A DNA stretch of 64,000 nucleotides from Paraburkholderia ginsengiterrae (GTDB lineage Bacteria > Pseudomonadota > Gammaproteobacteria > Burkholderiales > Burkholderiaceae), in NCBI RefSeq assembly GCF_001645125.1, contig NZ_LXKA01000087.1, positions 94,963 through 158,962 on the forward strand. Reading direction: 5' to 3'. A model generated the notes under the pieces. The model did not search any database. It was not told the origin of the DNA and was given only the letters and a program-made list of their open reading frames with translations. Position numbers and translations under genes: made by a program. This document shows positions 34,229 through 55,151 of the stretch, piece after piece. Each line of letters begins with the position of its first letter. Positions within the stretch are counted from its first letter, which is position 1.

Positions 34229-34419
34229 GCGTCTGGTCGAGGAGGGATTTGGCGAGAGCATACCGGCTGTGGTGATAGGCGTCTATAGCGTGGATCTCAC
34301 CATTCGCGGTGAAGTGAGTTTACGAGGCACAACTCACCTCGAGCCACTCCCGAAAACCCTCACCTCTGCGGTTTGGCACCAGGTTCAGAGCACCCTTGCA
34401 GGCCGCGGGCCAGGCAAAA

Positions 34420-34947
34420 TCAGACCCATTTCGCTTCACGCCCGAACAGAAGACAACCCATCCCGAATCTTCTCACCTCAAAAAAATTCCTGATTTTTTC
34501 GGTTCCGCACCTGGCATCCGCGGTGCGGTCGCGCCGGATCAGGTTAGAAGAGACGCGTCGCACGTTTTTGAAGCACGGCGCAAGAAATGAGTCGAGGTTT
34601 AGCGTTGAGCTGCGATACGCGGACAATGGAATCGAGATCGCCGCGCCTGTCAGCCCCTCCACGACGCAGGCTTTGTCAGGAGGGCATAGCGCCCGCCAGC
34701 GCGCTCCAACCGAGAACACCATAGGCAACGGGCCAGACATGGCCCGGACTTCAGCGAGGGCCGTCAGCGCACACGCAACGCGCGGGCCACGGCGTAGCCA
34801 AATCGGAAGCGCGAGCGGACGACGGCAGATTGCCGGCACCTGAACGCGCAATTCGGACTCGAGGAAGTGTCTTCCCATTGCTTCGAGGCCGCGCGCTCCC
34901 TCTCCAAACGTTCGCCGTAGATAGGTAACCAAGGTCTCCTGACTCAT
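34420..34947 (-). CDS. Doubtful hypothetical gene inside the iteron field
   Basis: A 175-codon frame whose middle part has coding-like third-position GC and reads LPMVFSVGARWRALCPPDKA, but which matches no family I know. It contains iteron copy 34461 near its 3' end. GGAGG lies about 12 bases before the ATG, too far for a good ribosome site. It fills the only iteron-free gap (34481-34962) in the field, which is a weak argument that it is real. Low confidence. Confidence 0.3.
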   Translation of the reverse strand: MSQETLVTYLRRTFGEGARGLEAMGRHFLESELRVQVPAICRRPLALPIWLRRGPRVACALTALAEVRAMSGPLPMVFSVGARWRALCPPDKACVVEGLTGAAISIPLSAYRSSTLNLDSFLAPCFKNVRRVSSNLIRRDRTADARCGTEKIRNFFEVRRFGMGCLLFGREAKWV

Positions 34948-35849
34948 AAGTCCGGCCGCCTCCCCCCGAATAAGCTCACCTTAGTGCAGGCGAAACGCTT
35001 GAAATGGCAAGGTCTCCAGACATGTAGGGTCCCAAAACCGTCGATATATCCTCCCGAAAGTCCTCACCTTTGACCTTCCCGACGGTTTCCACGCACCTCA
35101 AAACATACCTCCCGAAAAGCCTCACCTTTACATCGCACCAGATAATTATTCATCATTTTCAATAGCTTACGATCACAGCCGTAGCGACCTCCCACGAGAC
35201 AGCTCCCGTAAATCCTCACCTCAACCCACATTAAGGTGAAATTCTGCACTTCCGATCGCCGCGACAAACGTCCCGAAAAACCTCACCTTTTGAATTCGGC
35301 GGGCGCAGAAGCGAAACTGGTACGGTCGCGTCAGCAGGGCCTTTCCAGACCGCAATCGCCGATTTGATCCTGTATTTCCTCACCTTAGCGATCACAAAGC
35401 CCTGAAAAGTCTCCTGAAAATACTCACCTTTCGGTGGAATCCGGCATATTTCGCGTGGCGCGCATCGCGCCTGGTCGTCGCTCCCGAATTTCCTCACCTT
35501 TCCCAGTCCGGGACCGACCAACCGGGGGCGTCGGCAGGTGAACAGCCGCTCGAGCGCACTTTGGCTCCCGCAAAGTCTCACCTTAAGCACCTGAATGCAC
35601 GGAAATAAGGCAAAAACGCCCGCTCAGCCCTGTAAAGTCTCACCCTCGGTACGCGTTTTCTCCCGAATTGACTCACCCATGGGGTTTACGCGCCCCCAAT
35701 AAGGCCAAAAACGATGCCGCAAGCCGGTCCCGAAAGCCCTCACCTTAAGCCGCGCCGGCCTCGGAACCGAATGTCGAGCGCTGCCGGGCGATCCCACGGG
35801 CTGGAGTCCTGCAAAACCTCACCTTTGGTCAAACCACACTTTGGGAGGG

Positions 35850-35960
35850 GTTCCTGAACCCGCTCACGTTCTGTCCCGGACCCGCTCACCGAGGCCCCCG
35901 AACCCCGTCACCGAACATTCCCGCAAGACCTCACCACACCTCCCGAAAAGCTTCACCTTC
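35850..35960 (-). repeat. Five tightly phased iterons
   Basis: Copies at 35850, 35873, 35895, 35918 and 35940 follow each other at 23, 22, 23 and 22 bases, about two helical turns. They are more degenerate than the scattered copies (GCTCACG, GCTCACC, CGTCACC, CCTCACC, CTTCACC). This is the classic iteron array, and it abuts the AT-rich tract. Confidence 0.85.
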
Positions 35961-36344
35961 CTCCTCTGAAACGCCCGCCAGATAAGGCTTTGCGTTGGCG
36001 TTAACGTTTTTAACAAGGGTTCAAGGGTGTTTACTTTTATTACTCTCTAGAATTTCCCCCCGTGCGTCCTTCGGACAAAGCCTTCCCACCCAAGATGCCA
36101 ACAACTGGCGTCCGTGAAACAGTGCACGATCGTGGGAAAATCTCTAAAAACTCTTTCGCAACAAGACCTTATTGGCTATTCTTCGTTTTGTTTCACGGAA
36201 AAAACCGCGGAACGCAAATCTGCGAACCCTACTTAGGCACGTAAACACGCCGATCCGTCCATTTCCATCTCATAGCAACATTTGCGTAGCAAACAGTACG
36301 TAAATTGTTATGATTAATCCAATTCGAGCGACATCGAGGTATAC
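35961..36344. other. AT-rich tract, candidate DNA unwinding element
   Basis: Directly after the phased iterons; the stretch 36001-36060 is 39/60 A or T by count, in a genome that is otherwise well above 60% GC. It includes TTAACGTTTTTAAC and TTTACTTTTATTACT. A second AT-rich patch around 36280-36330 precedes the kfrA-like gene. No perfect DnaA box was seen here. Confidence 0.6.
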
Positions 36345-37550
36345 ATGAATCTGGATCAGGAACGGCAAGCCATTCGAAATGAGCTTGAAGCGCTGCGCGC
36401 CAACGGGGCGCGGCGGCAAGAACTTTCGCAGCACGCATGCAAGCGGCTCTTTTTTGATCTGGGTATCCGTCCGTCCATGGCCACCGTCCGGGATCTGACT
36501 CAGACCGGCAGCGCGAGCGACATTCCGAAAGACATCGACCATTTCTGGGAACGGATCCGCCATGTGTCGCGGGTAAAAGTCGGCGCCGGTGCCATTCCGA
36601 AAGCCCTGGAAGATCGCGCCGGCGAACTGCTTGGCGCACTTTTCGAAGAAGCCGTCGTCCACGCACGCACCACGCTTGAGGACGAACGCGAGCAAATTCG
36701 CGCCCAGATATCCGCTGCGGATCAACGTGCACGCGACGCGGAGATTCGCCAGCAAGCATCAGAAGATGCAATCCGGCGCAGCGAACTGCGAGCCGAGGCC
36801 GCGTGGGAACGCGTTCGCACGCTCGAAACCGAACTGTCGAACTCCACCACGCATGGCAATGCCCATCAGGAAAACCTGCAGACAACGGTGCGCCGGCTCG
36901 ATCACGAAAACGAGGCGCTTCGACAGCGTCTCGATAACGAACTGGCGAACAACGCAACGCTGCGAGACCGAATCGACGCATTGCACGTCGAAATGCGCCA
37001 AAGCACGGAACACTATGCGCAACAGATCAAGGACGCCATCGCCGAAGCCGAGCGGCGCGTGAAGCCCATGCTCGTCGAACTCGATTCCTTGCGCAGCATG
37101 GCCGCCACGTATCAGTCGGGCGTGCGCGACGCAAGTCGCAAGGAATTCGAGTTCATTCAGCAAATCGCCGCGGCCAAGGCACGCGGCGACCGGCTCGACG
37201 CGCAGCTGCGCGAGCAATCAGATGAAGTGGACGCGCTGACGAAACAGGTCACCGTGCTGCGCGGCCAGCAAGGTATTGATCCTGCGATCGCAAATCTGCT
37301 CTGCGCGCTGGTCGAGGCTGGCCGGCTGACGGGGGACGAAATGAAGATGATCGGCACGGCGGCGGACGGTCATGTCGCTTTGCCGTCGCGGTGCCCCAAA
37401 TGCCAGGAAGGTGAACCAGAGCTGTCGCAAGTGGATCACCGTTTCGAATTGCAATGCCCGGAGTGCGATCACTCGTCGGGGCTCGGCGAATCAAGGCTGG
37501 AGGCGGTTAGCCGCTTCCTGTCGAACGACCCGGTTGCAGCGTCCGCATAG
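36345..37550 (+). CDS. KfrA-like coiled-coil DNA-binding protein with C-terminal zinc ribbon
   Basis: A 401-residue protein. Residues 1-95 look like the KfrA N-terminal DNA-binding domain (ACKRLFFDLGIRPSMATVRDLT, GSASDIPKDIDHFWERI). Residues about 100-310 are a long heptad-rich coiled coil. The end has CPKCQEGEPELS and QCPECDHSSG, a four-cysteine zinc ribbon not found in plasmid KfrA proteins I know. KfrA proteins help partition by polymerising on DNA. The start has GAGG upstream. Being beside the origin and parABS, it probably organises or positions this replicon; that role is inferred. Confidence 0.82.
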   Translation: MNLDQERQAIRNELEALRANGARRQELSQHACKRLFFDLGIRPSMATVRDLTQTGSASDIPKDIDHFWERIRHVSRVKVGAGAIPKALEDRAGELLGALFEEAVVHARTTLEDEREQIRAQISAADQRARDAEIRQQASEDAIRRSELRAEAAWERVRTLETELSNSTTHGNAHQENLQTTVRRLDHENEALRQRLDNELANNATLRDRIDALHVEMRQSTEHYAQQIKDAIAEAERRVKPMLVELDSLRSMAATYQSGVRDASRKEFEFIQQIAAAKARGDRLDAQLREQSDEVDALTKQVTVLRGQQGIDPAIANLLCALVEAGRLTGDEMKMIGTAADGHVALPSRCPKCQEGEPELSQVDHRFELQCPECDHSSGLGESRLEAVSRFLSNDPVAASA

Positions 37551-37584
37551 CGGATTGGTGCGTTGCAATAGCGGACAAAGTGCC

Positions 37585-37629
37585 AAAGGTGAGGAAATGC
37601 GGGACTATAAAGGTGAGGACATTCAGGGC
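37585..37629 (+). repeat. Two iterons in the reverse orientation
   Basis: AAAGGTGAGGAAATGCGGGA at 37585 and AAAGGTGAGGACATTCAGGG at 37609, 24 bases apart, facing opposite to field A. They lie between the kfrA-like and recombinase-like genes; the second overlaps the 3' end of the latter. Confidence 0.8.
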
Positions 37630-38705
37630 TCGCCAGCTCCCGTTTTCCTCCTCAACCGCCCGTCGCGCCTAGGTGCAGGCAACGGCGCGGCGGCCGGATC
37701 CGGTACATCCGCGGCGGGTGAATCCTGCTGATCCATCCAGTTTTGCCATGCGCGGTACAGACGGTTCGCCGATACGGCCTGTACAAATCCCAGCCATTGG
37801 CCAACCAGTTCGGCCTCTACCCCACTCTCGAACAGATCCGCGGCGAACGTATTGCGCAATGTTTGTGGACTGGCGCGCGACGCACGCGACGCGGCGATTC
37901 CGGCGCCTTCGGTCAAGGCGTCGACCGCGCGCAGCATGGTGGCTTTGTGCATCGGCCGGCCGGAGGGGGATGCGGGGAAAACCAGATTGCCCGCCAGCTC
38001 CGCAAGACGCCGTTCCGCGAGCCACGCGTCGAGAATGGCCGCTGCGAAAGGTGTGAGCCGGGTGCGCCGCGTCAGCACCGGATTGGCCGACTCGATTGTC
38101 ACCCATGGCGATCCTGCAGTCACGCAACTAACCGAAAGTGCAGCGGCCTCGCCTGTTTTCAGGCCGCCGCCTAAAAACACAGCAATCAACGCGCGGTCGC
38201 GCCGCTCCCGCCAGCGCTGCGCCACCGACAAGGCCGGCAGCGGCGAAAACAGATGCGCGATCAATGCGGTTCGTTCGGCATGGTTGAGAAAGCCGGTCGG
38301 TTCGTTGTCGCGCGCGTTTCGCCACGCTGCTTCGCCATCCTGAGCAATGAAGCGTGCTGGATTGGTCGGCGCGGATTCGATTTCGCGCACATGATCGAGT
38401 ACGCGTTCGATCAGCCGCAAATACCTGACGCGCTGCGTTTTTCGGACATCGAGCCCGGCAACGAAGTCGGCAATGGTTTGAGCGTCGACGGTGACCAGAC
38501 TCTTCTGGCGCATGCCGAGCCACTCGAGAAAAAGTCCCCATTGCGCCTGGTAGACCTCCGCGGACGACCGCCGGAAATGCTGTTTGGCAAGCCAGGCGTC
38601 GAAAGCGATCTGAGGGTCGCGACGCCAGTCTTCACGCTGCTGATCGAAGAGATCGGTGGAAACCGCGGGACGTGGGACCGGGTCGGTCAGATGAGGAGGC
38701 GACAT
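37623..38705 (-). CDS. Tyrosine-recombinase-like protein with altered active site
   Basis: A 360-residue protein with the XerC/D architecture: N-terminal core-binding domain (about residues 25-130) and C-terminal catalytic-fold domain (about 150-330). Catalytic positions diverge: the first Arg is Lys (GGGLKTGEAAALS), the box usually reading HxLRH is QTLRNTF, the LGH position is LGF, and only the second Arg and the Tyr (NRLYRAW) remain. Strand exchange is therefore doubtful; a DNA-binding or accessory role is possible. It lies 57 bases after a small unknown gene, probably in one SOS-controlled operon, with an inverted repeat just ahead of its start. Confidence 0.85.
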   Translation of the reverse strand: MSPPHLTDPVPRPAVSTDLFDQQREDWRRDPQIAFDAWLAKQHFRRSSAEVYQAQWGLFLEWLGMRQKSLVTVDAQTIADFVAGLDVRKTQRVRYLRLIERVLDHVREIESAPTNPARFIAQDGEAAWRNARDNEPTGFLNHAERTALIAHLFSPLPALSVAQRWRERRDRALIAVFLGGGLKTGEAAALSVSCVTAGSPWVTIESANPVLTRRTRLTPFAAAILDAWLAERRLAELAGNLVFPASPSGRPMHKATMLRAVDALTEGAGIAASRASRASPQTLRNTFAADLFESGVEAELVGQWLGFVQAVSANRLYRAWQNWMDQQDSPAADVPDPAAAPLPAPRRDGRLRRKTGAGEP

Positions 38706-38721
38706 GGGCTATATTCCGTTA

Positions 38722-38745
38722 GTTGCGACTATTGTATGTCGCAAC
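38722..38745. promoter_or_regulatory. Inverted repeat ahead of the recombinase-like gene
   Basis: GTTGCGAC, eight bases, GTCGCAAC: perfect eight-base arms with an eight-base AT-rich spacer (TATTGTAT). It is 17 bases upstream of the start at 38705. Arms and spacer are in the range of a tyrosine-recombinase core site, but an operator is equally possible. Confidence 0.6.
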
Positions 38746-38762
38746 CGCCCGAAATACAGCCC

Positions 38763-39161
38763 TCAGCCGCCCCACGCCCGCGCGCGTTTCGTGGACGGGA
38801 TCGCCGACGACTGTTGTGCAGCGCGGCGAGCCGCCGCTTCGTAGGCAATGACCGCGAACGCGAACACCGCCGGCAAAGCGGTGGACGTGCCGAAGTCCAC
38901 TGTCTCATCGGTTTCCGGATAAGGCAGATCGGACGGTCGTTGGAATAGCCCCAGCATAAGCGCGTCGTGCCGGCTCGCGAAGCCGAGATCCGCCAGCGCT
39001 TCAGCTTCGATCGCGTGGAGCAGGCGCCACGTGAGCGGCACCTGTTGCACGATGTAGCGCGCGGCAATATTGCGCACGATGCGTTCGAGATCGCGCGCCG
39101 CGGTTTGGTAGCGCAACGCGGCCAGAGCATGCTCGGTTGAGTGGGTTGTCAGGTCGGTCAT
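38763..39161 (-). CDS. Unknown protein under a LexA-type box
   Basis: A 132-residue protein I cannot place. The N-terminal half is helical (ALAALRYQTAARDLERIVRNIAARYIVQQ, WRLLHAIEAEALADLGF); a hydrophobic stretch near residues 92-110 (ALPAVFAFAVIAYEAAARRA) might be a buried or membrane helix. The ATG at 39161 follows GGAGCC. A near-consensus SOS box lies 26 bases upstream, and the recombinase-like gene follows, so the pair may be induced by DNA damage. Confidence 0.7.
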   Translation of the reverse strand: MTDLTTHSTEHALAALRYQTAARDLERIVRNIAARYIVQQVPLTWRLLHAIEAEALADLGFASRHDALMLGLFQRPSDLPYPETDETVDFGTSTALPAVFAFAVIAYEAAARRAAQQSSAIPSTKRARAWGG

Positions 39162-39184
39162 GATCGGCTCCAGTCGATACCCTG

Positions 39185-39204
39185 TACTGTACAAATATAC
39201 AGTG
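39185..39204 (-). promoter_or_regulatory. LexA (SOS) box
   Basis: The core is CTGT-ACAAATAT-ACAG (39187-39202), flanked by TA and TG, a near-perfect match to the LexA consensus CTGT(AT)4ACAG. It is 24-26 bases upstream of the start at 39161, where a repressor would block transcription. Confidence 0.8.
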
Positions 39205-39277
39205 TCTGGCGCAACCTCGGCCATCGTGCTGAATCCGCCAACCGCCGGTCAAGGGGCGCTTCGAGCCGCGCCGCAAA

Positions 39278-39916
39278 TCAGCCGTGAATCACCACCAGCA
39301 AGGCTTTCGCCTCGCTTTTCCCGGCGTTGCGGATCGCGTGCGGTTCGTCGGCGACATAGCGCGCGGTGTCCGCGGCCTTGAGCCGCTTCGTCGTGCCGGC
39401 CGCCTCGATTTCGATCGATCCCTGCAGCACCGTCAAATGCTCGCGCGTGCCGGGCTCATGCGCGTTCGACACCAGCGCCCCGCCCGGCTGGAGCGTCAAC
39501 TCGTACCACTCGAACTTGCCGGCCAGTTCGATCGGCCCCCACACGCGCAACTGGTACTTGGCGTCGTGTCCGCTTAATGTAGGAATCTCGTGGGGACCGG
39601 AGACGGCGATCGCCGCCGGCGTCTTTTGCGGTGCGAACAGCGAATCGAGGCTGACGCCGAGCGCGTTGGTCAGGCGCCAGGCGACCGCGATCGTGGGATT
39701 GGCCTTGTCGCGTTCTATTTCCGACAGCATCGATTTCGACACGCCGGCCGCGCGCGACAGATCGTCGAGTGTCATGCGTCGCTCGGCGCGCAGACGCTGA
39801 ATCTGCTCGCCGACACGCGGCGGCGCAGCGATTGCGGGAGCCACAGTGGCGCCTGGGATGGGTGCCGCGTTGGCCGCGGCACGGCGGATACCCGAACTTG
39901 CCATTTTCTGACCCAT
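39278..39916 (-). CDS. XRE-family regulator with cupin sensor domain
   Basis: A 212-residue regulator: helix-turn-helix at about residues 38-90 (LRAERRMTLDDLSRAAGVSKSMLSEIERDKANPTIAVAWRL) and a cupin domain at about 125-210 (ELTLQPGGALVSNAHEPGTREHLTVLQGSIEIE). It diverges from kbl-tdh, so it very probably controls threonine catabolism, with an amino acid or related metabolite bound in the cupin. An inverted repeat in the shared promoter region is a candidate operator. ATG 39904 is an alternative start. Confidence 0.88.
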   Translation of the reverse strand: MGQKMASSGIRRAAANAAPIPGATVAPAIAAPPRVGEQIQRLRAERRMTLDDLSRAAGVSKSMLSEIERDKANPTIAVAWRLTNALGVSLDSLFAPQKTPAAIAVSGPHEIPTLSGHDAKYQLRVWGPIELAGKFEWYELTLQPGGALVSNAHEPGTREHLTVLQGSIEIEAAGTTKRLKAADTARYVADEPHAIRNAGKSEAKALLVVIHG

Positions 39917-39938
39917 CGTTTAGAGTTGTTCGACATAC

Positions 39939-39970
39939 CGGATTTTAGTTCGAAAAAACGAAAATATCCG
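39939..39970. promoter_or_regulatory. Imperfect palindrome between the regulator and kbl
   Basis: CGGATTTT...AAAATATCCG arms enclose TTCG/CGAA in an AT-rich island between the divergent genes. A plausible operator for the XRE-cupin regulator. Confidence 0.45.
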
Positions 39971-40065
39971 ATAAAACTGACAGCCGACTATAACAGGCCG
40001 CCTCGTGGCCGCGCATGCGGAACATGCTGACACGGGCGCCTTTACCCATTTCAGGAGTCTGGTTC

Positions 40066-41265
40066 ATGCGCGACCAATACCTCGCCCATCTGCGCGGCAC
40101 CCTCGAGCAGATCCGCGCCGACGGCTTTTACAAGAACGAACGCGTGATCGCCAGCCCGCAGTCGGCTGACATCCGCCTCGCCAACGGCACGAACGTGCTG
40201 AATTTCTGCGCGAACAATTATCTCGGTCTCGCCGGCGACGCACGGCTGATCGAAGCCGCGAAGCAAGGTCTGGATACCGACGGCTTCGGCATGGCGTCCG
40301 TGCGTTTCATTTGCGGCACGCAAACCGTGCATAAGGATCTGGAACAGGCGCTCGCCGCGTTCCTCCAAACCGACGATTGCATCCTCTACTCGAGCTGTTT
40401 CGACGCGAACGGCGGTTTGTTCGAAACCCTGCTCGACGAGAACGACGCGATCATTAGCGACGAACTGAACCACGCCAGCATCATCGACGGCGTGCGGCTT
40501 TCCAAGGCCAAGCGCTTTCGCTACAAGAACAACGATCTCGCCGATCTCGAAGCAAAACTGAAAGAAGCGCAAGCGGCCGGCGCACGCTTCACATTGATCG
40601 CGACCGACGGCGTGTTCTCCATGGACGGCATCATCGCCGACCTCGCCGGCATCTGCGATCTGGCTGACCGCTACGGCGCGCTGGTGATGGTCGACGATTC
40701 GCACGCGGTGGGTTTTGTCGGCGAACACGGGCGCGGCACGCCGGAACATTGCGGGGTGCTGTCGCGCGTCGACATCATTACCGGCACGCTGGGTAAAGCA
40801 CTGGGCGGCGCATCGGGCGGTTACGTGGCCGCGCGCAAGGAGATCGTGGAACTGCTGCGCCAGCGCTCGCGTCCCTATCTGTTCTCGAACACGCTCACGC
40901 CGAGCATTGCCGCCGCCTCGCTGAAGGTCCTCGAGCTGCTGGCGAGCGACGAAGGTGCGCAGCTACGCGCACGGGTGCGCGAAAACGGCGCGCATTTCCG
41001 CAGCAAGATGAGCGCACTCGGCTTTACGCTCGTGCCGGGCGAACATCCTATCATTCCCGTCATGCTCGGCGACGCACTACTCGCCTCGAAAATGGCGGAC
41101 GCGCTCCTGAAGGAAGGCGTCTACGTGATTGGCTTTTCGTTCCCGGTGGTGCCCAAAGGCCGCGCGCGCATCCGCACGCAGATGAGCGCCGCGCATACGC
41201 CTGAACAGATCGACCGTGCGGTGGATGCATTCGCGCGCGTCGGCCGTGAACTTGGTGTTATCTGA
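40066..41265 (+). CDS. kbl: Glycine C-acetyltransferase (2-amino-3-ketobutyrate CoA ligase)
   Basis: A 399-residue PLP enzyme of the alpha-oxoamine synthase family that splits 2-amino-3-oxobutyrate with CoA into glycine and acetyl-CoA. Family blocks: [64 protein letters not shown] and the PLP-lysine motif [15 protein letters not shown]. The ATG at 40066 follows AGGAG. It is 13 bases ahead of tdh, forming the usual two-gene threonine degradation operon. Confidence 0.96.
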
Positions 41266-41278
41266 TCCGGAGCCGCAG

Positions 41279-42310
41279 ATGAAAGCATTGGCAAAACTCG
41301 AACGCGCGCCCGGCCTCACGCTCACGGACGTCAAAAAACCTGAAGTCGGCCACAACGACGTGATGATCCGCATCACGCGCACGGCGATTTGCGGCACCGA
41401 TATTCACATCTGGAAGTGGGACGATTGGGCACAAAAAACGATCCCGGTGCCGATGCATGTCGGCCACGAATACGTCGGTGAAATTGTCGAGATGGGGCAG
41501 GAAGTCCGCGGCTTTGCGATCGGCGACCGGGTGTCGGGCGAAGGCCATATTACTTGCGGCTTCTGCCGCAATTGCCGCGCGGGGCGCCGGCATTTGTGCC
41601 GCAATACGGTGGGCGTCGGTGTGAATCGTGAAGGCGCGTTTGCCGAGTACCTGGTGATTCCCGCCTTCAACGCGTTCAAGATTCCTCCGGAAATCTCCGA
41701 CGACCTCGCCGCGATTTTCGACCCGTTCGGCAATGCCACGCATACGGCGTTGTCGTTCAATCTGGTCGGCGAAGATGTGTTGATCACCGGTGCCGGACCG
41801 ATCGGCATCATGGCGGTGGCGATCGCGAAACACGTCGGCGCGCGCAATGTTGTGATTACCGACGTCAATGACTATCGGCTCGAACTCGCGCGCAAGATGG
41901 GCGCGACGCGCGCGGTGAACGTCTCGCGCGAATCGCTGCGCGACGTGATGGCCGATCTGCACATGACCGAAGGTTTCGACGTCGGGCTGGAAATGTCCGG
42001 CGTGCCGAGCGCGTTCACCGGCATGCTCGAGGCGATGAACCATGGCGGCAAAGTCGCCTTGCTCGGCATTCCGCCCGCGCAGACCGCGATCGATTGGAAT
42101 CAGGTGATTTTCAAGGGCCTCGAAATCAAGGGCATTTACGGCCGCGAGATGTTCGAGACCTGGTACAAGATGGTCGCGATGCTGCAAAGCGGCCTGGATC
42201 TTTCGCCGATTCTCACGCACCGTTTCAAGGTCGACGACTATCAGGAAGCGTTTGCCACCATGCTGTCCGGCGCGAGCGGCAAAGTGATTCTCGATTGGAC
42301 GGCCGCGTAA
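41279..42310 (+). CDS. tdh: L-threonine 3-dehydrogenase
   Basis: A 343-residue zinc-dependent medium-chain dehydrogenase that oxidises threonine to 2-amino-3-oxobutyrate, the Kbl substrate. The catalytic zinc ligands are in [10 protein letters not shown] and GHEYVGE; the structural zinc cysteines are in [15 protein letters not shown]; the NAD loop is [16 protein letters not shown]. The start at 41279 gives the standard [15 protein letters not shown] beginning. A terminator follows at 42393. Confidence 0.96.
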
Positions 42311-45837: not shown

Positions 45838-46602
45838 CCGTCAGAATCCTCAGCCTACCTGCCCATTCAAATATCTCACCGCTGTCTGGCCAGCCGGGGA
45901 GCAGGCGAGCGGTCAAACAAGGCGAGTCGTTGGTGTTAGTCGGTGTCGGCGGGAAAAACTGACAGCAACTCCAAAATAAGTTTTTTAGTGACGCATGCTC
46001 GCCAGGCGTAGATAGGCATGTCTCGACTACGGCTCTGCTCATGTCGATCTGGTCCTGTTTGGAGATTCCAGGTGAACAGCGTCTTTGCGATCAACGGTGA
46101 GGAATTCCAGGAGATGGCTTCGTTGCGATCAAAAGGTGAGGAATTCCAGGAGATGGCTTCGTCGCAATCAAAAGGTGAGGAATTCCAGGAGATGATCTTA
46201 TCCCGGTCAACGGTGAAGCTTTCCAGGAGACGGTTCAAATTCGTCGAGCGGTGAGCCGTTCCAGGAGCTGAACGGCACCTTACCTACCTATGAGAACGCG
46301 CCACGGTGAGGAGTTCCAGGAGATCACACGCAAAGGTGAGCGATTCCAGGAGGTGAGACACTACCACACCGGGTCCGCACCTGCCAAAAGGTGAGGATTT
46401 CCAGGGAATTCTCGTCATAGCCGCCGACGGTGAAGCGTCGAGCACTGAAACGACTCACCCTGACAACCCGATAGGTGAGAACATTCGGGAGACGTCGAGG
46501 TGAGAATATGGCTACCTGTCCGCGCACTTTAAATGCAAAGGTGAGAGAATTCGGGAGCACAGAACCAGACCTTCATCGGCCTCTCCACGTCCGTCAAACT
46601 CA
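45838..46602. other. Gene-free region carrying iteron cluster B
   Basis: About 760 bases without a credible gene. Open frames here (for example 46018-46254 and 45936-46238) are translations of the repeats themselves, giving the recurring GEEFQEM or SWNSSPF peptides. Confidence 0.8.
46093..46557 (+). repeat. Iteron cluster B (about 10 good copies)
   Basis: Copies of the repA-type iteron in the orientation AAAGGTGAG, variable bases, TTCCAGGAG or TTCGGGAG. Starts: 46093, 46132, 46171, 46209, 46247, 46302, 46332, 46387, 46471 and 46537, with degenerate ones near 46426 and 46496. The first five are 38-39 bases apart. Most share TTCCAGGAG rather than TTCGGGAG, a subfamily distinct from fields A and C. 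They lie about 10 kb from the main origin field and face the other way. Confidence 0.88.
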
Positions 46603-47298
46603 ATGACACCGAAAGCCTTCGCAAAGGAAATCAAGGCGGCGCTCTCGCCGCACGGCGACCCGGACCGTGCGCTGGCAATGCGCGCCTACATGCGCGGCCA
46701 GTTCGAGTTCATCGGCGTGCCGACACCGCTGCGGCGGCAGGCGGTACTGCCGGTATTCAAGCAACTGTCGATAGACAACGCCGGTCAACTGCTGGCTTAC
46801 GCCGATGTCTTATGGGCGTTGCCGGCGCGTGAATACCAGTACGTCGCCACGGATTTACTGGCGCGCAAATGGAAGACGCTGGCGACAGCGGATATCGCGC
46901 ATCTGTTAACGATGGCGCAGCACGCTTCCTGGTGGGATTCGATCGATCCGCTCGCGGGCGTGGTTGGCGACGTGGTGAAAGCGGCGCGAGTCGATACGCC
47001 CGGCGCACAGGCGACCATGGATGCAGCGCTTCAGCACGACTCGCTGTGGGTGCGGCGTATCGCGATGATTCATCAGCTCGGCTGGCGCGAGCACACGGAT
47101 GAAGATCGCCTGTTCGGTTACGCTCGTGCACTTGCCGCGGAAAGTGACTTCTTTATCCGCAAGGCGATTGGCTGGGCCTTGCGGGACTACGCCTGGCACG
47201 CGCCCGACGCGGTGAGCGGCTTTCTGTCGGCCTCACGCGATCTCATGTCGCCGCTCACCCTGCGTGAGGCATCGAAGCATCTGCCGCCCATCCGCTGA
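46603..47298 (+). CDS. AlkD-like DNA alkylation repair protein
   Basis: A 231-residue all-helical HEAT-repeat protein of the AlkD/AlkC DNA glycosylase superfamily. Typical blocks are MRAYMRGQFEFIGVPTPLRRQ, REYQYVATDLLARKW, MAQHASWWDSIDPLAGVVG, HDSLWVRRIAMIHQLGWRE and FFIRKAIGWALRDYAWHAPDAV. Members remove bulky or positively charged alkylated bases. There is no obvious ribosome site before the ATG at 46603, which comes directly after cluster B, so its expression may be affected by initiator binding there. Confidence 0.85.
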   Translation: MTPKAFAKEIKAALSPHGDPDRALAMRAYMRGQFEFIGVPTPLRRQAVLPVFKQLSIDNAGQLLAYADVLWALPAREYQYVATDLLARKWKTLATADIAHLLTMAQHASWWDSIDPLAGVVGDVVKAARVDTPGAQATMDAALQHDSLWVRRIAMIHQLGWREHTDEDRLFGYARALAAESDFFIRKAIGWALRDYAWHAPDAVSGFLSASRDLMSPLTLREASKHLPPIR

Positions 47299-49105: not shown

Positions 49106-49382
49106 CGGTAGGCTCCACGGGGTCGAACGAAGCTTTAGTCTGGACGCGCAGTTTGTTGGAACAGTGACAATTCGTAAAAACAAAAAGCATTAATTAACGG
49201 CAGTTAAATAAAAAACTTGAGCAATAAATTTAACGCGTTGAATGCATTTAAAAAATCGACAGTCATCGCTTAGTAACATGCGTCCGCAATACTCAGCGGC
49301 GCTGCAAGTAGGACCATATTTCGCATAAAACGCGCTGCTCCCAACGAGGACTGACGCGAAGGCCAGACCCCGGGGGGTTCAA

Positions 49383-51773
49383 ATGACTATTCGTCATCGC
49401 ATCACGCTATTGGTTGTATTGATGTTCGTCGCCCTATCGGCGATTGGCGGCTACGCCGTCTATCAGACGCGCGGCAGCGCGGCCGAAGTGCGCAAGGTCA
49501 CGGAAGGTGTCGTGCCCAGCGCGCTCGCCTCTGCCGACCTCGTGTCGCAAGTCAAGGACGTGCAGTTGGCGACGATGACGCTGGTCTACGCGCCCGACGC
49601 CAACATGGTCTCCCAGGCCCAGGACGATCTGAAGAAGAAGCGCGTCTCGCTGCAGCAGGCGCTCGCCTTGCAGGCAAGGGACGCCGCGAGCCACGCCCAG
49701 AAGGGGCTCGTTTCGCAGGCTAATGAGAGTCTAGAAAACTATTTCTCCGCCATTGCCGACACGGCCAAAATGAAGGCCGACGGCAAGAACGAGCTCGCGC
49801 AGGCGTATCTGTTCGCCAACGTCGCACAGTATCGTGACGAGCTGGAAGGAATCGTCGAAACCTTGCGCGTCGAGAAGAACCGCGAGAAGGACGACGCGAT
49901 CACCACGCTGAATGCCAGGCTTGCCACCACGACCACGGCGATTGCGGTCGTTACCGGCATCGCCATTATTCTGCTGACTTCGATCGGTTCACTGCTCTAC
50001 CGCCAGATTACGCGCCCGCTTATCCGCATGCAGGCCATGATGAGCGAGATCGCGTCGAGCCAGGACTTCACGCGCCGCGTGCCGGTGGGCCGGTTGGATG
50101 AGATCGGCCATTCGATTGTCGCCTTCAACGGCATGATCGAGAAGATTCAGGAAAGCTCCGCGCAGCTCAAGCAGAAAACCGCCGATATCCAGGCGATGTT
50201 GCAGAACATGCAGCAAGGTATTCTGACCGTGATCGACGGTGCCGTGATCCACTCGGAGTACTCGGCGTATCTGGAAGACATCTTCGAGACGAAGGACATT
50301 GCCGGCCGCGGTCTGATGGATCTGGTGTTCGCGGATACCGACCTCGGCTCGGACGCGCTCTCGCAAGTCGATGCGGCCGCGCATGCGTGCCTTGGCGAAG
50401 ACTGCATCAACTTCGCGTTCAATCAGCACCTGCTGGTCGGCGAGATTTCGAAGCGCATGCCCGATGGGCGCGTGAAGATTCTCGACCTGACGTGGTCAGC
50501 GATTACCGATGAAAACGACGTCATCCTGCGCCTTATGTTGTGCGTGCGCGACGTCACCGAATTGCGCAAGCTCGCGGCGGAAGCCGGCGAACAGCGCCGC
50601 CGCCTCGATATGATCGGCGAGATTCTCGCGGTCAGCGAAGAGAAGTTCCATCACTTCATTGAAAGCTCCGCGGGCTTTATCAGCGAAAACGAGCGGATCA
50701 TTCGCAAGCATTCGGAAGCGGATCACGCGGCGATTGCCGAGCTGTTCCGCAACATGCACACCATCAAGGGCAATGCGCGCACTTATAACCTGCAGCATCT
50801 GACCAACGTCGTGCATGAAACCGAGCAGAGCTATCACGAACTGCGCCAGCCGGAGACGGATCGTCCGTGGGATCAGGAACATCTGATGGCCGAGCTGATG
50901 CGTGTGCGCGAAGCGATCGACAGCTACGCGAAGATCAACGAACAGAGCCTGGGCCGCAAGAGTAAAGGCCAGGGCGATGACGCCGGCAATTCGGGCCACT
51001 ACGTGATGGTCGCGAAGGACCACATCCAGCACACGCTGAGCATGCTGGATCAAACCAATGCCGGCGAACTCCACGAACTGCAATCGATGCGCGATACGCT
51101 GCGCCGCACGCTGCGGGCACTGGGCAGCGAGAGCGTGCGCGACGCGCTGTCCGGCGTGCTGGATTCGCTGCCTTCGCTCGCGAGCGAGTTGGGCAAGCCC
51201 GCGCCGACCGTGCGGATCGACGACAACGGCTACCGTCTGCGTGGCGAAGCGGGTGGCACGCTGAACAACGTATTCATGCATCTGCTGCGCAATTCGATGG
51301 ACCACGGCATTGAATCCGCCGAGGCGCGCAGTGCCAATGGCAAGACGCCGGCCGGCACGATCGATATCGAAGTCGGCGTGGACAACGGCGCGCTGCAGAT
51401 CACGCTCAGCGACGACGGCTGCGGCCTTGCGCTCGAACGGATTCGCGGGATCGCCATGGAGCGCGGCTGGATCGGCAGCGGCGACGCGCTGAGCGACGAG
51501 GCCATCGCCGATTTCATTTTCCGGCCGGGCTTCTCGACCGCGGAAACGGTCACGGAGCTGTCAGGCCGCGGAGTCGGCATGGACGCCGTGCGTGATTTCC
51601 TCCGGCGCGCGAACGGCAACATCGAACTGCGCTTTACCGACGATCATCGTGGCGCCGCGTACCGTCAGTTCCAGACGATCGTCTGCCTGCCGGACAGCGT
51701 TGCCGTTGATACGCTCGGCGTGGCAGCGCGTGGCGAAGCCGGGGTACCGCAACTCGACGCGATGGCGGACTGA
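49383..51773 (+). CDS. Membrane-anchored CheA-like kinase with HAMP, PAS, HPt and ATPase domains
   Basis: A 796-residue protein that merges chemoreceptor and kinase parts. TM helices near 7-27 and 183-205 enclose a four-helix-bundle-type sensor; HAMP follows (about 206-262), then a PAS domain (about 270-390), a histidine phosphotransfer domain with FRNMHTIKGNARTY (about 455) and a CheA-type ATPase domain with LLRNSMDHGIES (N box), LSDDGCGL and SGRGVGM. No CheW-like C-terminal regulatory domain is present. It heads a five-gene operon with an MCP-like protein, two CheX-like proteins and CheY, so it is the probable phosphodonor. Confidence 0.88.
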   Translation: MTIRHRITLLVVLMFVALSAIGGYAVYQTRGSAAEVRKVTEGVVPSALASADLVSQVKDVQLATMTLVYAPDANMVSQAQDDLKKKRVSLQQALALQARDAASHAQKGLVSQANESLENYFSAIADTAKMKADGKNELAQAYLFANVAQYRDELEGIVETLRVEKNREKDDAITTLNARLATTTTAIAVVTGIAIILLTSIGSLLYRQITRPLIRMQAMMSEIASSQDFTRRVPVGRLDEIGHSIVAFNGMIEKIQESSAQLKQKTADIQAMLQNMQQGILTVIDGAVIHSEYSAYLEDIFETKDIAGRGLMDLVFADTDLGSDALSQVDAAAHACLGEDCINFAFNQHLLVGEISKRMPDGRVKILDLTWSAITDENDVILRLMLCVRDVTELRKLAAEAGEQRRRLDMIGEILAVSEEKFHHFIESSAGFISENERIIRKHSEADHAAIAELFRNMHTIKGNARTYNLQHLTNVVHETEQSYHELRQPETDRPWDQEHLMAELMRVREAIDSYAKINEQSLGRKSKGQGDDAGNSGHYVMVAKDHIQHTLSMLDQTNAGELHELQSMRDTLRRTLRALGSESVRDALSGVLDSLPSLASELGKPAPTVRIDDNGYRLRGEAGGTLNNVFMHLLRNSMDHGIESAEARSANGKTPAGTIDIEVGVDNGALQITLSDDGCGLALERIRGIAMERGWIGSGDALSDEAIADFIFRPGFSTAETVTELSGRGVGMDAVRDFLRRANGNIELRFTDDHRGAAYRQFQTIVCLPDSVAVDTLGVAARGEAGVPQLDAMAD

Positions 51774-51842
51774 GCGCCGGACGGGCGCAATAAGCGGAGC
51801 ACTAACGGGCGCACTTCGCGGCGGATTTCGAAGGAAACGGTT

Positions 51843-52577
51843 GTGATTCAACAGTATGTACTGGCAGCGGCAGCAGGCAGCGCGGTTACCGCGCTGCTGG
51901 CATTTGTGGCCCACAAGATGCACAGCACCAGGCTGGCGGCACGGTTGCGCGACGAAGCGCAGGCACGGGTCGACGCGCTGAAGGCCGAGCAGACCGACCA
52001 CGACGCAGCGCTCCGCGAACGCGAAGAGGCGGCGCAGGAACTGCAGTCGTTGACCGAGCAATTGCGCGACGAGTTGATGCAGCAATCGGCGAGTGCCGAA
52101 GACCTGCGCGCGGCGCTCAAAGCGGCCACTGAGGATAAGGACCAGTGGGCGTATCAGGCTCAACGGATCGCCGGCGAAGCTGAGCGTCTCAAGAGTCTCG
52201 GTGCGACGTTTGAGCGCTGGCACGAGCAGATGATTTCGCTGATGACGCAAAACCAGGACATGCACTCGAAGAATGAGGAGCTGTCCTCGATTGTGCGGCA
52301 TGTGGTGATCGTGTCGCTCAACGCGTCGATCGAGGCCGCGCGTGCGGGTCCGGCCGGCCGTGGCTTCGCGGTCGTGGCGAGCGAAGTGCGCGCGCTTGCA
52401 GCGCGTTCCGAGGAGTTGTCGAAGAGCTATCGCGACAGCCTGCATCGCAATGACCTGACCACGACCTCGACGTTCCAGGACATTCAGGCCGGCGGCAAGA
52501 TGATTTCGGCGTCGCTTGCCAGCGTCGAATCGCTGGCCAACCAGTTTCATTCGAAGCTGCAAGAGGTGGCGGTGTGA
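51843..52577 (+). CDS. Minimal MCP-like signalling protein
   Basis: A 244-residue protein with one N-terminal membrane helix (about residues 4-24), a charged coiled coil, and the hairpin-tip signature of methyl-accepting chemotaxis proteins: VVIVSLNASIEAARAGPAGRGFAVVASEVRALAARSEELS (about 160-200). There is no periplasmic sensor and no HAMP. The start is a GTG at 51843 after AAGGAAACG. Its stop overlaps the GTG of the next gene (GTGA). It probably forms the signalling scaffold with the CheA-like kinase. Confidence 0.85.
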   Translation: MIQQYVLAAAAGSAVTALLAFVAHKMHSTRLAARLRDEAQARVDALKAEQTDHDAALREREEAAQELQSLTEQLRDELMQQSASAEDLRAALKAATEDKDQWAYQAQRIAGEAERLKSLGATFERWHEQMISLMTQNQDMHSKNEELSSIVRHVVIVSLNASIEAARAGPAGRGFAVVASEVRALAARSEELSKSYRDSLHRNDLTTTSTFQDIQAGGKMISASLASVESLANQFHSKLQEVAV

Positions 52578-53113
52578 TTTCGGCCCATGCCCGGGATAGC
52601 TTCGAACGCATTTTCCGTAAGGCCGCGCAGGCGCGTTTGCCGCTGGATTCGAACGACCTGTGCGAGATCGTGTCGCTTGCCGATGCGAGTGCCGGCACGA
52701 GCAAAGACACGCAAGTGGTCGTGCTGACCATTTCGTCGATGGTGTTCAGACTGCTGCTGATCCTGCACTTCGACGAAGACGACAGCACGCGCGCCTACTA
52801 CCTGAAAGAGGCCGAAGAGCGGCCCTTCCAGGAAGCCTTTCTGGAAATCTGCAATCTGTGCTGCGGCGCCATCAATCAGGAATTGTTGCGCTACTTTCCC
52901 GACCTCGGCATGTCGACGCCGTATGTATTGGAAGCAGGTTGCCTGCCCTATCTGCATGAGTTGAAGCCGGGTTTGCTGTCGTCGTATTCGGTCACGCTCA
53001 ACGGTTCGGTGCGGCTTGCCGCCACGTTGTGCGTGTGCACGCATGCGCCGATCGACTTTGTCGCGGACACGAGCGCTATTGAGGAAACCAGCGGAGAGCT
53101 GGAGTTGTTTTGA
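52574..53113 (+). CDS. CheX-like protein
   Basis: A 179-residue cytoplasmic protein. The segment FQEAFLEICNLCCGAINQELLRYFPDLGMSTPYVLEAG (about 92-129) holds an ExxN pair (EICN) as in the active site of CheX/CheC phosphatases, followed by the usual Pro-rich strand. It starts with a GTG overlapping the previous stop. The C-terminus ends GELELF, a tail almost repeated in the next protein (GELDLF). The likely role is dephosphorylation of the operon CheY; this is inference. Confidence 0.7.
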   Translation: MISAHARDSFERIFRKAAQARLPLDSNDLCEIVSLADASAGTSKDTQVVVLTISSMVFRLLLILHFDEDDSTRAYYLKEAEERPFQEAFLEICNLCCGAINQELLRYFPDLGMSTPYVLEAGCLPYLHELKPGLLSSYSVTLNGSVRLAATLCVCTHAPIDFVADTSAIEETSGELELF

Positions 53114-53150
53114 TTGTGCGTTGTATAGCCGCCGTGAGCAGGAACGTAAG

Positions 53151-54122
53151 ATGAACATGAATAAACCGGTCAGCAAGGTGCTGGTGCTGGACGACTGCCC
53201 GGTGCACAAGGAAGTGCTGAAACGCTTTTGCGACGAGAACAATCTGGTAGGCGTGAAAGTCGGCAAGAACCGCTTGCAATCCGTCTTGCGCTCGAACATC
53301 GATCTGGGCGCGGTGCTGTTCGCCGAATGTTACGGCGGCTCCGCGGAAGCCAGCGCCGAGATCGCGATCAGAATCAACGCGGTGCGTCCCGAGTTACCGA
53401 TCATCATGCGCCGGGAGCGCGACGCGAGCATGGACGACTTGCCGGAGAGTTTGCGCCGCGTGGTCTGTGCGGCGTACGTCGCGCATGACATGGCGCCGCT
53501 GCAGAAGGTAATCGACGAGTACATCTTCAGTCTGGACTATCCAAACGCACTGGTGCGCGGTATCGCGGACATGACGCAGGCGATTCTCGGCGACGTGTTC
53601 AAGGACCTGACCATCACGTGCGACACGCCGTATATCGTGCGCGACCGGATCATCTTCGGTGAGGTGTTCAGCCTGATTCCGCTGGAAAGCGCATGGTGCC
53701 GCGGCTACATGATGATGCAGGCCGAGGAGGCGCCGATTCTCGAGTTGCTCGACCGTTACCAGATGATTGACGGCGCGCAACCCGGCGAGGCGGATTTCCG
53801 CGATCTGAACAGCGTGCTCGGCGAAGTGACGAACCTCATCTGGGGCTCGTTCAAGAACCGGTATGTCGGCGACGCGGACGCCTTGCTGCGCAGCCAGGTG
53901 CAGGTGCCGCTGCTGGTGAATCACAAACACAAGTACATCTCGTTCGGCAGCGGCAATCCGCAACTGTGCTTCATGTACTGGCTTAAAGACCCGCAATCGG
54001 GCCGCGCGGTGAAGTTGCATCAACGGTTTGTGTTCAGCCTGGCCTGGTCGCCGGAAGACTTCAAGGAAGTCACGGACGACGTCGGCGCAATGGTCGAGGC
54101 AGGTGAACTGGATCTGTTCTGA
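53151..54122 (+). CDS. Degenerate receiver fused to a CheX-like domain
   Basis: A 323-residue protein. Residues 8-125 have a receiver fold outline (VLVLDDCPVHKEVLKRF), but the phospho-acceptor position reads VLFAECYGG instead of an Asp, the Thr/Ser position is IIMRRER and the Lys is missing (YVAHDMA), so it is a pseudo-receiver. Residues about 135-310 are CheX-like, with LNSVLGEVTNLIWGSFKN giving the ExxN active-site pair. The C-terminus ends GELDLF, like its neighbour. The ATG at 53151 follows AGGAA. It may be a phosphatase tuned by protein contact instead of phosphorylation. Confidence 0.75.
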   Translation: MNMNKPVSKVLVLDDCPVHKEVLKRFCDENNLVGVKVGKNRLQSVLRSNIDLGAVLFAECYGGSAEASAEIAIRINAVRPELPIIMRRERDASMDDLPESLRRVVCAAYVAHDMAPLQKVIDEYIFSLDYPNALVRGIADMTQAILGDVFKDLTITCDTPYIVRDRIIFGEVFSLIPLESAWCRGYMMMQAEEAPILELLDRYQMIDGAQPGEADFRDLNSVLGEVTNLIWGSFKNRYVGDADALLRSQVQVPLLVNHKHKYISFGSGNPQLCFMYWLKDPQSGRAVKLHQRFVFSLAWSPEDFKEVTDDVGAMVEAGELDLF

Positions 54123-54142
54123 ATGTTGTCAAAGGAAAAAAC

Positions 54143-54508
54143 ATGTCGAAAATTCTGGTGGTGGATGACTCGAGCACGGTGCGCGACGAAGTGGCCGGTT
54201 TTCTGAAGAAGAACGGCCTCGATGTCGACACGGCAGTGGACGGCAAGGACGGCCTCGCCAAGCTGAAGGCCAGCCCTGGCATCAAGCTGGTGATCAGCGA
54301 CGTCAACATGCCGAACATGGACGGCCTGACGATGGTCGAGAAGATTCGCGGTGAACTTGCGAACAAGACGGTCAACGTCATCATGCTGACCACGGAGAGC
54401 AGCCCGGCAATGAAGGAGCGCGGCAAGGCAGCCGGCGTGAAAGGCTGGATCGTCAAGCCTTTCAAGGGCGACGCTGTGCTCGAAACGTTCCGCAAGCTGG
54501 CGAGCTAA
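54143..54508 (+). CDS. CheY-like response regulator
   Basis: A 121-residue stand-alone receiver with all active-site residues: acidic pair in LVVDDSSTVRDE, acceptor Asp in LVISDVNMPNMDG (about 53), Thr in IMLTTESS and Lys in GWIVKPFKGD. It closes the chemosensory-type operon and is preceded by AAAGGAAAAA. It lacks an output domain, so the final target, possibly a motor, pilus or cyclase, is not encoded nearby. Confidence 0.92.
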   Translation: MSKILVVDDSSTVRDEVAGFLKKNGLDVDTAVDGKDGLAKLKASPGIKLVISDVNMPNMDGLTMVEKIRGELANKTVNVIMLTTESSPAMKERGKAAGVKGWIVKPFKGDAVLETFRKLAS

Positions 54509-54533
54509 GCGCCGCCAGTGCGCCCGGCTCGCC

Positions 54534-55151
54534 GAAGGTGAGCGTTTTCGGGAGCTGCGCACCGGCCGCTTATCAAGTCTGTCGCGCAACCGCCGCGATC
54601 GACGAAATACGCTGGATTCGTGGATAAACCGGCCGGCGTGGCGATCGCGGCCGAGCGCTGCGCGCGCGTCCGCTCGGCCAAAGGTGAGAGTATTCGGGAC
54701 CCACGCGGTTTCAACCGATGGTGCCGATGAGCGGCGCAAAGAATTCACCGGTCGTTGCCAACGCATCTTTCGCGCTTCTCGTGTATCGCGAGACGCGTCG
54801 CCGCTTACCTGGGTATGCAGATTACCTCTGCTTTCCTTCAGGTGAGGGTTTTCGGGAATGGCCTGTTCCAGGCTACCCGTGCCACGCCCAGCATGCCTTT
54901 GCTGCCTGCTTCCAGGCTCGAAAGGTGAGCGTTTTCGGGAGCAGATTAGCGCGCACCTTGCACGGAAACACGAGCGGTGCTGGCGAAAGGTGAGTATTTT
55001 CGGGAGCGCGTCACGCGCTATTCCATGCGCAAGCAGCCTGCTCGTGCTGCACGGCAAATTAGGCGAGATGGCGCGCGTTCGGCACGTCAACCGACATTGA
55101 ATCGGCGCCGAATCAATGTCGAATCAGCTCAAAGGTGAGATTTTTCGGGAG
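54534..55151 (+). repeat. Iteron cluster C (six copies)
   Basis: Copies begin at 54534, 54678, 54838, 54921, 54986 and 55131 and read AAAGGTGAG, variable bases, TTCGGGAG in the plus orientation. They are very uniform (GTTTTCGGGAG, TATTTTCGGGAG, TTTTTCGGGAG endings) but widely spaced, 65-160 bases. They share the TTCGGGAG half with field A and lie about 19 kb from it. Confidence 0.88.
55092..55121. other. 30-base near-perfect palindrome
   Basis: CGACATTGA...TCAATGTCG arms around ATCGGCGCCGAA; only one base pair is mismatched over the whole 30 bases. It lies 10 bases before the last iteron of cluster C. There is no T-run, so a protein-binding site is more likely than a terminator. Confidence 0.6.

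Follow-up and report, generated by a model that had tools for sequence, protein, structure and literature searches.

The repA locus and its iteron array

The DNA analyzed here is a stretch of 64,000 nucleotides from Paraburkholderia ginsengiterrae (contig NZ_LXKA01000087.1, forward strand positions 94,963 to 158,962, of assembly GCF_001645125.1, which comprises 8.53 Mb in 393 contigs), referred to below as the window, and its subject is a family of iterons dispersed around repA, the gene for the Rep_3-type initiator of a chromid. Copies of the iterons that form an array next to repA also stand outside the origin, in gene neighborhoods kept among relatives, and we propose that these satellites probably restrain re-initiation. 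The repA gene (32882..34261, minus strand) codes for a protein of 459 amino acids in which both Rep_3 winged-helix domains exceed the cut-offs (PF01051, E 1.7e-11; PF21205, E 5.8e-10) and which weakly matches a chain of the pi protein (2nra, E 0.0042). RepA is 99% identical to the RepA proteins of three named Paraburkholderia records; its AlphaFold2 model, with a mean predicted local distance difference test score (pLDDT) of 43.9, is unusable except for a helical C-terminal stretch at about residues 363-456. The partition genes of the chromid, parA (31068..31730, plus strand; NF041546, E 2.5e-65) and parB (31756..32814, plus strand; TIGR00180, E 7.8e-23; PF02195), lie next to repA.

A matrix of 25 positions was trained on the motif copies of the window itself and used with a cut-off of at least 12 bits. 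It detects 38 copies in the window, 37 of which fall into four clusters that repeat finding also recovers, with the copies in register; this tally is partly built in, since the matrix was trained there, and the other genomes provide the independent test. The false-match rate is 0.26 per Mb, corresponding to one match of at least 16 bits in 3.84 Mb of first-order Markov sequence derived from the window. A strict pattern, AAAGGTGAG-N2..8-TTC, gives 15 matches in the window as compared to 0.01 expected from shuffled sequence. Read on the other strand, the consensus is the same as that published for the iteron of Burkholderia cenocepacia chromosome 2 (c2), ctCCCGAAAAacCTCACCTtt (PMC4948915). As in c2-type origins, the iteron consensus of the ctCCCGAAAAacCTCACCTtt type adjoins repA and parAB here.

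The half-site of the motif, GGTGA, recurs inverted in a probable repA operator, TCACC-N6-GGTGA (34297..34312), which begins 51 bp before the repA start codon; iteron initiators typically use an operator of inverted half-sites. The arrangement TCACC-N6/7-GGTGA was found within 150 bp of repA in all of 80 related loci and in 0 of 20,000 random 150-mers from the window. It is also present in B. cenocepacia, Mycetohabitans and the Methylovorus plasmid pMsip01, and its exact form was not found before repA in two Candidatus Vallotia records. The origin array itself (34347..35960), delimited by repeat finding and the matrix, consists of 19-20 copies in a single, minus orientation: 19 score at least 12 bits and a degenerate 20th at 35912 reaches 8.8 bits, in agreement with a first-pass annotation of this DNA that had counted about 20 copies upstream of repA. 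Direct repeats of about 19-22 bp beside rep, a feature of Rep_3 iteron replicons, are present. Among the 80 named loci of relatives, 79 have 12-18 array copies at at least 14 bits, and 1260 of these 1261 copies share the same orientation. The exception, L060 (on the second contig of Paraburkholderia phenoliruptrix LMG 22037), is an additional repA copy with 92% identity, in which the operator is present and no iteron array lies upstream.

At the end of the array distal to repA, the iterons follow each other at steps of 22-23 bp (35868, 35890, 35912, 35935 and 35957), a spacing that marks the stretch 35849..35960 (minus orientation) as the probable core origin. Offsets of 22, 67 and 89 bp from the distal iteron recur in 68, 69 and 68 of 79 loci, respectively, and an offset of 45 bp in 19 of 79. 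We infer that this 22-bp-spaced end looks like the core origin and the remaining array like a regulatory field. A conserved AT-rich block beside the core (35975..36060) is a putative unwinding region; within it, TAATAAAAGTAAACACC on the minus strand is identical in six of ten aligned sequences, namely the six that reach the block.

DnaA boxes with at most one mismatch are absent between 33 and 37 kb of the window; consensus DnaA boxes are not needed by all Rep_3 iteron origins. The nearest group of such boxes, at 24883-25072, is situated on the parA side about 10 kb from the iteron origin and contains two perfect copies of TTATCCACA (25038, plus; 25064, minus) and two with one mismatch. Between the core origin and kfrA (36113-36197), two inverted elements, CGTGAAACA and TGTTTCACG, stand about 70 bp apart and are invariant in 10 of 10 aligned sequences. 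In our estimation they resemble half-parS, and they could be candidate sites for KfrA or ParB.

Satellite clusters and their gene neighborhoods

The kfrA-like gene (36345..37550, plus strand; PF11740, E 5e-18) is followed by satellite A' (37585..37629, plus orientation), in which the matrix finds two iterons, spaced by 24 bp, in the gap where kfrA and a gene for a XerC/D-like tyrosine recombinase (37623..38705, minus strand; PF00589, E 1.5e-13) converge. Satellite B (46093..46557, plus) comprises ten iterons upstream of an alkD-type gene (46603-47298), the first five of them spaced at steps of 38-39 bp, and satellite C (54534..55151, plus) comprises six, in the gap where cheY and an SDR gene converge; both were delimited by the matrix and repeat finding. 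For these three places the first-pass annotation had given two, about ten and six copies, all in plus orientation, and exactly 2, 10 and 6 are found, all plus. It had also placed the far clusters in gene-free gaps, which is correct for B and C, both of them situated between genes; in A', the second copy extends to the 3' end of the recombinase open reading frame. Also in the window are genes for an aminotransferase and a zinc dehydrogenase, identified as kbl and tdh from annotated relatives, together with the alkD-type gene, the SDR gene and a chemotaxis set that ends with cheY.

The same gene neighborhoods hold sites in related replicons. Distances are given from repA, positive towards kfrA and negative towards hpnD. 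Two sites occupy the kfrA/recombinase gap in 11 of 11 long relatives, and 71 of 79 named loci have at least two sites between +2.6 and +4.5 kb. Cluster B stands before the alkD-type gene in the window and in G022 and G037, the relatives whose scanned DNA showed such a gene. In G014, G022 and G037, 8-11 kb separate cheY from the SDR gene and sites are located directly behind each. The stretches scanned in G020, G027, G030 and G031 yielded no cheY, but each still has a site some 50 bp past the SDR gene, with a distance from repA of +18 to +239 kb. For G001 the distance between site and SDR gene is about 850 bp. No SDR gene of this kind was seen in the scanned stretches of G024 and two Burkholderia. 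The satellites thus keep their gene neighborhood, behind kfrA, cheY, the SDR gene and an H-NS gene, at differing distances from the origin. A fixed origin distance was rejected as a description of the layout, since the same gene gaps hold sites at very different distances. With regard to cluster positions in related chromids, the gaps are therefore what is kept, and the distance from the origin varies.

An iteron within the coding sequence of hpnD

The first-pass annotation had reported no copies elsewhere in the window, which does not hold: a further copy of 25.1 bits at 17443 (17427..17443, minus) lies inside hpnD, the gene for presqualene diphosphate synthase (17014..17862, minus strand; NCBIfam TIGR03465, E 4e-109), where it is read as the codons TCG GTG AGA ATA TTC GGG. 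The arginine codon of this site is AGG or AGA in 63 of 64 hpnD genes from five genus codes. As a control, other codons of the same genes were used together with random synonymous recoding. AGG or AGA occurs only once among 1,324 codons at 21 other conserved arginine columns, and 16 times among 1,850 if all other hpnD arginines, including those in unconserved columns, are counted. Within the site, serine TCG, valine GTG and phenylalanine TTC are invariant (64/64) and glycine is GGG in 62 of 64 genes. In the 65th gene, L212, the residue is now serine (AGC) and the DNA motif is retained. A score of at least 16 bits at this site is reached in 63 of 65 loci, as compared to 15 of 20,000 random synonymous recodings. 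These patterns of codon usage indicate that the hpnD iteron is under selection at the DNA level.

The hpnD query was one base out of frame and thus selected loci through an overlapping frame; it still led to the correct locus, whose codons were then read in frame, and 13 of 40 genomes fell below its cut-off. Three loci, L217-L219, had been chosen for pattern matches, and without them the count of AGG or AGA is 60 of 61. In an order-wide sample of 150 genomes, hpnD was found in two, both within the family and one being the own genome. The sole CGG case, G105, is a draft of 560 contigs in which hpnD and repA are on different contigs, and in Vallotia cooleyia hpnD is kept and the motif is lost. 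In four genomes of genus code g10 (G084, G048, G152 and G118; probably Caballeronia), hpnD is located about 34-54 kb away on the opposite side of the origin. Its strand is reversed there, and the site consequently keeps its orientation relative to the fork (G118 being taken as circular).

Distribution over replicons and genomes

A looser pattern, GGTGAGNNNNTNCNGGA, matches 45 times in the own genome, 31 times in the window and 14 times on other contigs, compared with 2 matches of the reversed pattern. All 40 same-genus genomes, the own genome included, contain 8-29 pattern matches each (reversed pattern, 0-1) and one close repA. Twelve near-complete congeners (five contigs or fewer; contigs treated as circular where repA is at an end) contain 230 matches, of which 204 are within 350 kb of repA, 12 elsewhere on the same replicon and 14 on other contigs; the reversed pattern has 6 matches in the same genomes. 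One iteron family of a Rep_3-type chromid replicon is thus concentrated near the origin on the repA replicon, as the first-pass annotation had supposed. Neither the even spread over the genome nor the absence from relatives that it had named as grounds for giving up its claim was encountered, positions being largely conserved by gene neighborhood. A genome-wide repeat element was rejected on account of this concentration. In 11 of the 12 congeners the dnaA contig differs from the repA contig. These 11 primary chromosomes gave 3 pattern matches, in three different genomes and none with TTCGGGA, and a conserved primary-chromosome (crtS-type) site of the same motif was looked for with this pattern and not found; a site with another motif, or one of the TCCAGG subtype, might be present there.

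In the remaining case, G024, repA (780357) and dnaA (4336234) share a contig of 6.68 Mb (G024:C1), at roughly opposite positions. This contig appears to be a fusion of chromosome and chromid and retains RepA, array and satellites. Chromosome fusion has already been published for another Burkholderiaceae genus (PMC8729776).

Long stretches were scanned with the matrix in nine of the 12 near-complete genomes (G011, G026 and G034 were excluded), in G001, G020 and G031 only in stretches chosen around pattern matches. The nine relatives follow a common plan: one site between -15 and -18 kb, then the array, a pair between +3.1 and +3.75 kb, right-hand groups and outer pairs; in G031 a second set starts only at +233 kb. 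In the two Burkholderia species, B. cenocepacia and B. multivorans, the site within hpnD (-13 kb) and the array are followed by a pair at +3 kb and few satellites up to +18 kb.

In the own genome, contig C2 carries two further iteron pairs, at 10248/10291 and 40136/40484. The latter, or far pair, is flanked by an H-NS-family gene and by fae, and corresponds by its flanks to a pair of G037 and G022 at +83 to +97 kb from repA. By its 43-44 bp spacing alone, the pair at 10248/10291 is probably the counterpart of the G037 and G022 pairs at +55 and +62 kb. Compared with nine relatives, the far pair matches six in both flanks, two mainly in one flank and G024 in none, and the eight matching relatives carry it at a distance from repA of +48 to +272 kb. 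In B. multivorans, in which fae is situated at about +153 kb, this gene lacks a site of the far-pair type. The four clusters over 21 kb of the first-pass annotation thus stand as clusters and belong to a wider spread that includes hpnD, the two C2 pairs and a genus-wide constellation from about -13 to -18 kb (hpnD) to +48 to +272 kb.

Two observations concern sites further away. In G022:C2, two strong sites in opposite orientation (3138264-3138530) lie about 1.49 Mb from repA on a chromid of 3.53 Mb, possibly toward the terminus. Contig C343 of the own genome (44.7 kb; L084/L085) has strong chromid-type iterons at 1250 and 39261 and an open reading frame that, by eye, resembles a conjugation coupling protein; C343 may be a plasmid that carries RepA sites belonging to the chromid. 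For the region around C343:39261, six relatives gave no match on their repA contig, and two gave a match elsewhere.

Smaller and more distant replicons were also compared. In the two Candidatus Vallotia, the chromid is a plasmid of 66 or 72 kb, in which the array persists in partly degenerate form and the matrix scan found no site of at least 16 bits outside it. The plasmid pMsip01, whose RepA shares 44% identity, has a repeat of this kind next to repA: the better sites stand before repA, one 11.4-bit site at its end, and scattered ones of 10-12.5 bits occur, with no site of at least 16 bits away from repA. In a Mycetohabitans plasmid of 0.82 Mb, satellites extend to +12 kb and no site was found on the repA side (-18 to +82 kb scanned). 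A Variovorax relative (RepA 39%; linear record) has only one inverted repeat pair before repA. The Vallotia, pMsip01 and Mycetohabitans replicons fit a gain of satellites with chromosome size and their loss with shrinkage, although they differ in further respects.

Orientation, strength and two classes of sites

In 12 replicons, all 178 array sites and all 12 hpnD sites are in minus orientation, and all 24 sites of the kfrA gap are in plus orientation. At 5-45 kb, 150 sites are plus and 11 minus; beyond 45 kb the numbers are 24 and 17. Between +2.6 and +10 kb, the 80 named loci together have 140 plus and 18 minus sites, and in Caballeronia one of the sites behind kfrA is plus and one minus. 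Site orientation largely switches at the origin, from minus toward repA to predominantly plus on the opposite side, but not strictly; the earlier statement that the far clusters face opposite to the origin field reflects this switch.

The satellites score at least as high as the array sites, with median scores of 27.9 and 29.9 bits as compared to 26.9 bits for the array, and their number relative to the array ranges from about half (8 vs 15 in B. cenocepacia) to twice (36 vs 16 in G037). A TCCAGG-type subtype, TTCCAGGAG, makes up 8 of the 10 sites of cluster B. In the window and nine relatives, with the second set of G031 included, it accounts for 57 of 149 sites at 5-45 kb and 0 of 147 array sites; the arrays of the 80 named loci contain it in 3 of 1,188 sites. 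It is present in 8 of 10 replicons, once only in G024, and is missing from G001 and G020. Two sequence classes of site can thus be distinguished, an array type and a TCCAGG class that is nearly confined to satellites.

Possible function of the satellite iterons

RepA is the likely binder of the motif, because the motif matches the c2 iteron, its half-site forms the operator and pMsip01 has the repeat at repA. On this basis we consider it probable that the iterons are RepA sites, that array and operator form the origin, and that the satellites restrain re-initiation by titration or handcuffing. RepA would fire the 22-bp-spaced core origin beside the AT-rich block and, through the inverted half-site operator, repress its own gene, while the array beyond the core would act as a regulatory field. 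The satellites (hpnD, the kfrA/recombinase gap, B, C and the outer pairs) would be kept by selection on the DNA. Being duplicated soon after initiation, as the forks leave, they would raise the number of RepA sites per cell. Combined with pairing through RepA (handcuffing), they would keep RepA away from the sister origins, so that no re-initiation would occur. We infer RepA binding at the satellites, the negative sign of their effect and their action by titration or by handcuffing from the features of the DNA.

Several observations weigh against this proposal. Between 5 and 45 kb, only 5 satellites are found in B. cenocepacia and only 7 in B. multivorans, neither of which has a site of at least 16 bits past +18 kb (scanned to +238 and +175 kb, respectively), and the several-fold variation in the distance of the far pair (+48 to +272 kb) makes a distance-based clock unlikely. 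Some strong sites are remote from repA, e.g. those at +871 and +1487 kb in G022, and in the own genome single sites are found on contigs C46 and C336 and two on the plasmid-like C343. The primary chromosomes were searched with the pattern only, and the TCCAGG subtype and TGC/TAC variants escape it. Vallotia tarda has two positions outside the array with 12.5 and 15.4 bits, and Vallotia and pMsip01 differ from the full-size chromids in more than size. Finally, a legend in Du et al. 2016 states that other such repeats "are found throughout the genome" of strain J2315 (PMC4948915), which sits badly with the concentration near the origin observed here. The B. cenocepacia strain examined here, a different one, did not show the 140-kb cluster of J2315.

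Other explanations have to be considered. RepA could bridge the array and the satellites in cis, the resulting loops positioning or condensing the region with little effect on initiation. That most sites fall within a restricted domain around the origin, that their orientation switches there and that the far pair adjoins an H-NS-family gene would fit such an architecture; yet the same motif builds the origin array and the repA operator, and the known role of origin iterons and rep operator in such replicons is the control of initiation. The polarity is also not strict, given the 24 plus and 17 minus sites beyond 45 kb and the mixed sites behind kfrA in Caballeronia, and we regard this explanation as unlikely. 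It is improbable that RepA serves at the satellites as a transcription regulator of neighboring genes: initiators of this family do repress their own gene, and cluster B is upstream of the alkD-type gene in the window, G022 and G037, but the kfrA/recombinase and cheY/SDR sites are in convergent gaps, behind both stop codons, and the hpnD site is inside a coding sequence.

The proximity of parAB and kfrA to repA raises the question of whether the sites belong to ParB or KfrA and hence to a centromere instead of an initiator system, centromere sites being often scattered near origins. We consider this very improbable, as pMsip01 has the motif at repA and its annotated ParA/ParB genes about 45 kb away (29 kb the other way), and as the half-site operator precedes repA. 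The least credence is given to the outlying copies being neutral relics of an origin duplication, or a repetitive element that spread near the origin. The 38-39 bp tandem units with which cluster B starts are a sign of local duplication, and part of this cluster might have arisen in such a way; for hpnD and the conserved pairs it is unlikely, as orthologous gene gaps hold sites across species, synonymous positions of hpnD are conserved over five genera and there is little spread through the rest of the genome.

Restraint of re-initiation by satellite RepA sites may be part of a more far-reaching development, which we put forward tentatively as a possibility that falls short of an even chance. 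The gene-anchored, clade-wide constellation with its two classes of RepA sites would have arisen as a plasmid became chromosome-sized and would turn plasmid copy control into once-per-cycle control. Passage of the fork through the constellation would alter RepA site number and pairing stepwise, one element would have been written into synonymous positions of hpnD, and the set would decay when the chromid shrinks to a plasmid. This would amount to a second, independent evolution of the solution found in Vibrio chromosome II, without a primary-chromosome site of the same motif.

How a plasmid-type origin fires once per cycle on a replicon of chromosome size has been studied chiefly in Vibrio, and the conserved satellites are a concrete candidate regulator in a second lineage. 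Full-size chromids, the 0.82 Mb Mycetohabitans plasmid, the 66-72 kb Vallotia plasmids and one apparently fused genome offer a comparison series, and single sites can be removed by synonymous change (hpnD) or deletion of a gap. The hpnD iteron also shows that a replication-type signal can be maintained within a coding gene through codon selection.

Comparison with known systems

In iteron plasmids, control iterons such as those of P1 incA, pSC101 and R6K limit copy number by titration and handcuffing and are located near the origin. The extra iterons described here are, unlike these, spread over tens to hundreds of kb. Among the matches listed for open-licence PubMed Central titles and beginnings of abstracts, conserved satellites, an iteron in hpnD or two classes of sites were not reported for this group, and the main text of PMC13342612 does not contain the word "iteron". 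The iterons of B. cenocepacia chromosome 2 have the same consensus and belong to the same replicon type; in the available sections of that source, outlying copies are only mentioned in a legend, without conservation or function (PMC4948915). According to the same work of Du et al. 2016, c2 segregation is phased as well as that of the main chromosome, which points to a regulation atypical of plasmids (PMC4948915).

The E. coli locus datA likewise binds the initiator near the origin and restrains initiation, but there the initiator is DnaA and not a Rep_3 protein, and the mechanism involves hydrolysis of DnaA-ATP (PMC3937223). A further case in which initiator sites distant from the origin regulate a chromid is crtS of Vibrio cholerae, which, in contrast to the satellites, is located on the primary chromosome and enhances initiation (PMC11711613, PMC6090056). 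Here, 11 primary chromosomes gave 3 unrelated pattern matches in a search that covered one pattern only, and crtS differs in sequence from its own origin sites. In the tentative, more far-reaching reading given above, the two classes of sites would be reminiscent of the 12-mers and 39-mers of Vibrio.

There is also a likeness to the external RctB sites of V. cholerae chromosome II, which, as described in the accessible text of Baek and Chattoraj 2014 (PMC3937223), are also copies of origin sites located outside the origin on the same replicon, with a different initiator and a different motif. Compared with these, the system described here has more sites, conservation across genera, one site in a coding gene and a subtype nearly restricted to satellites. 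In the pattern search, the primary chromosomes yielded no conserved site of this motif. By analogy, the best reading is that the satellites would act on this chromid as the external RctB sites do in V. cholerae.

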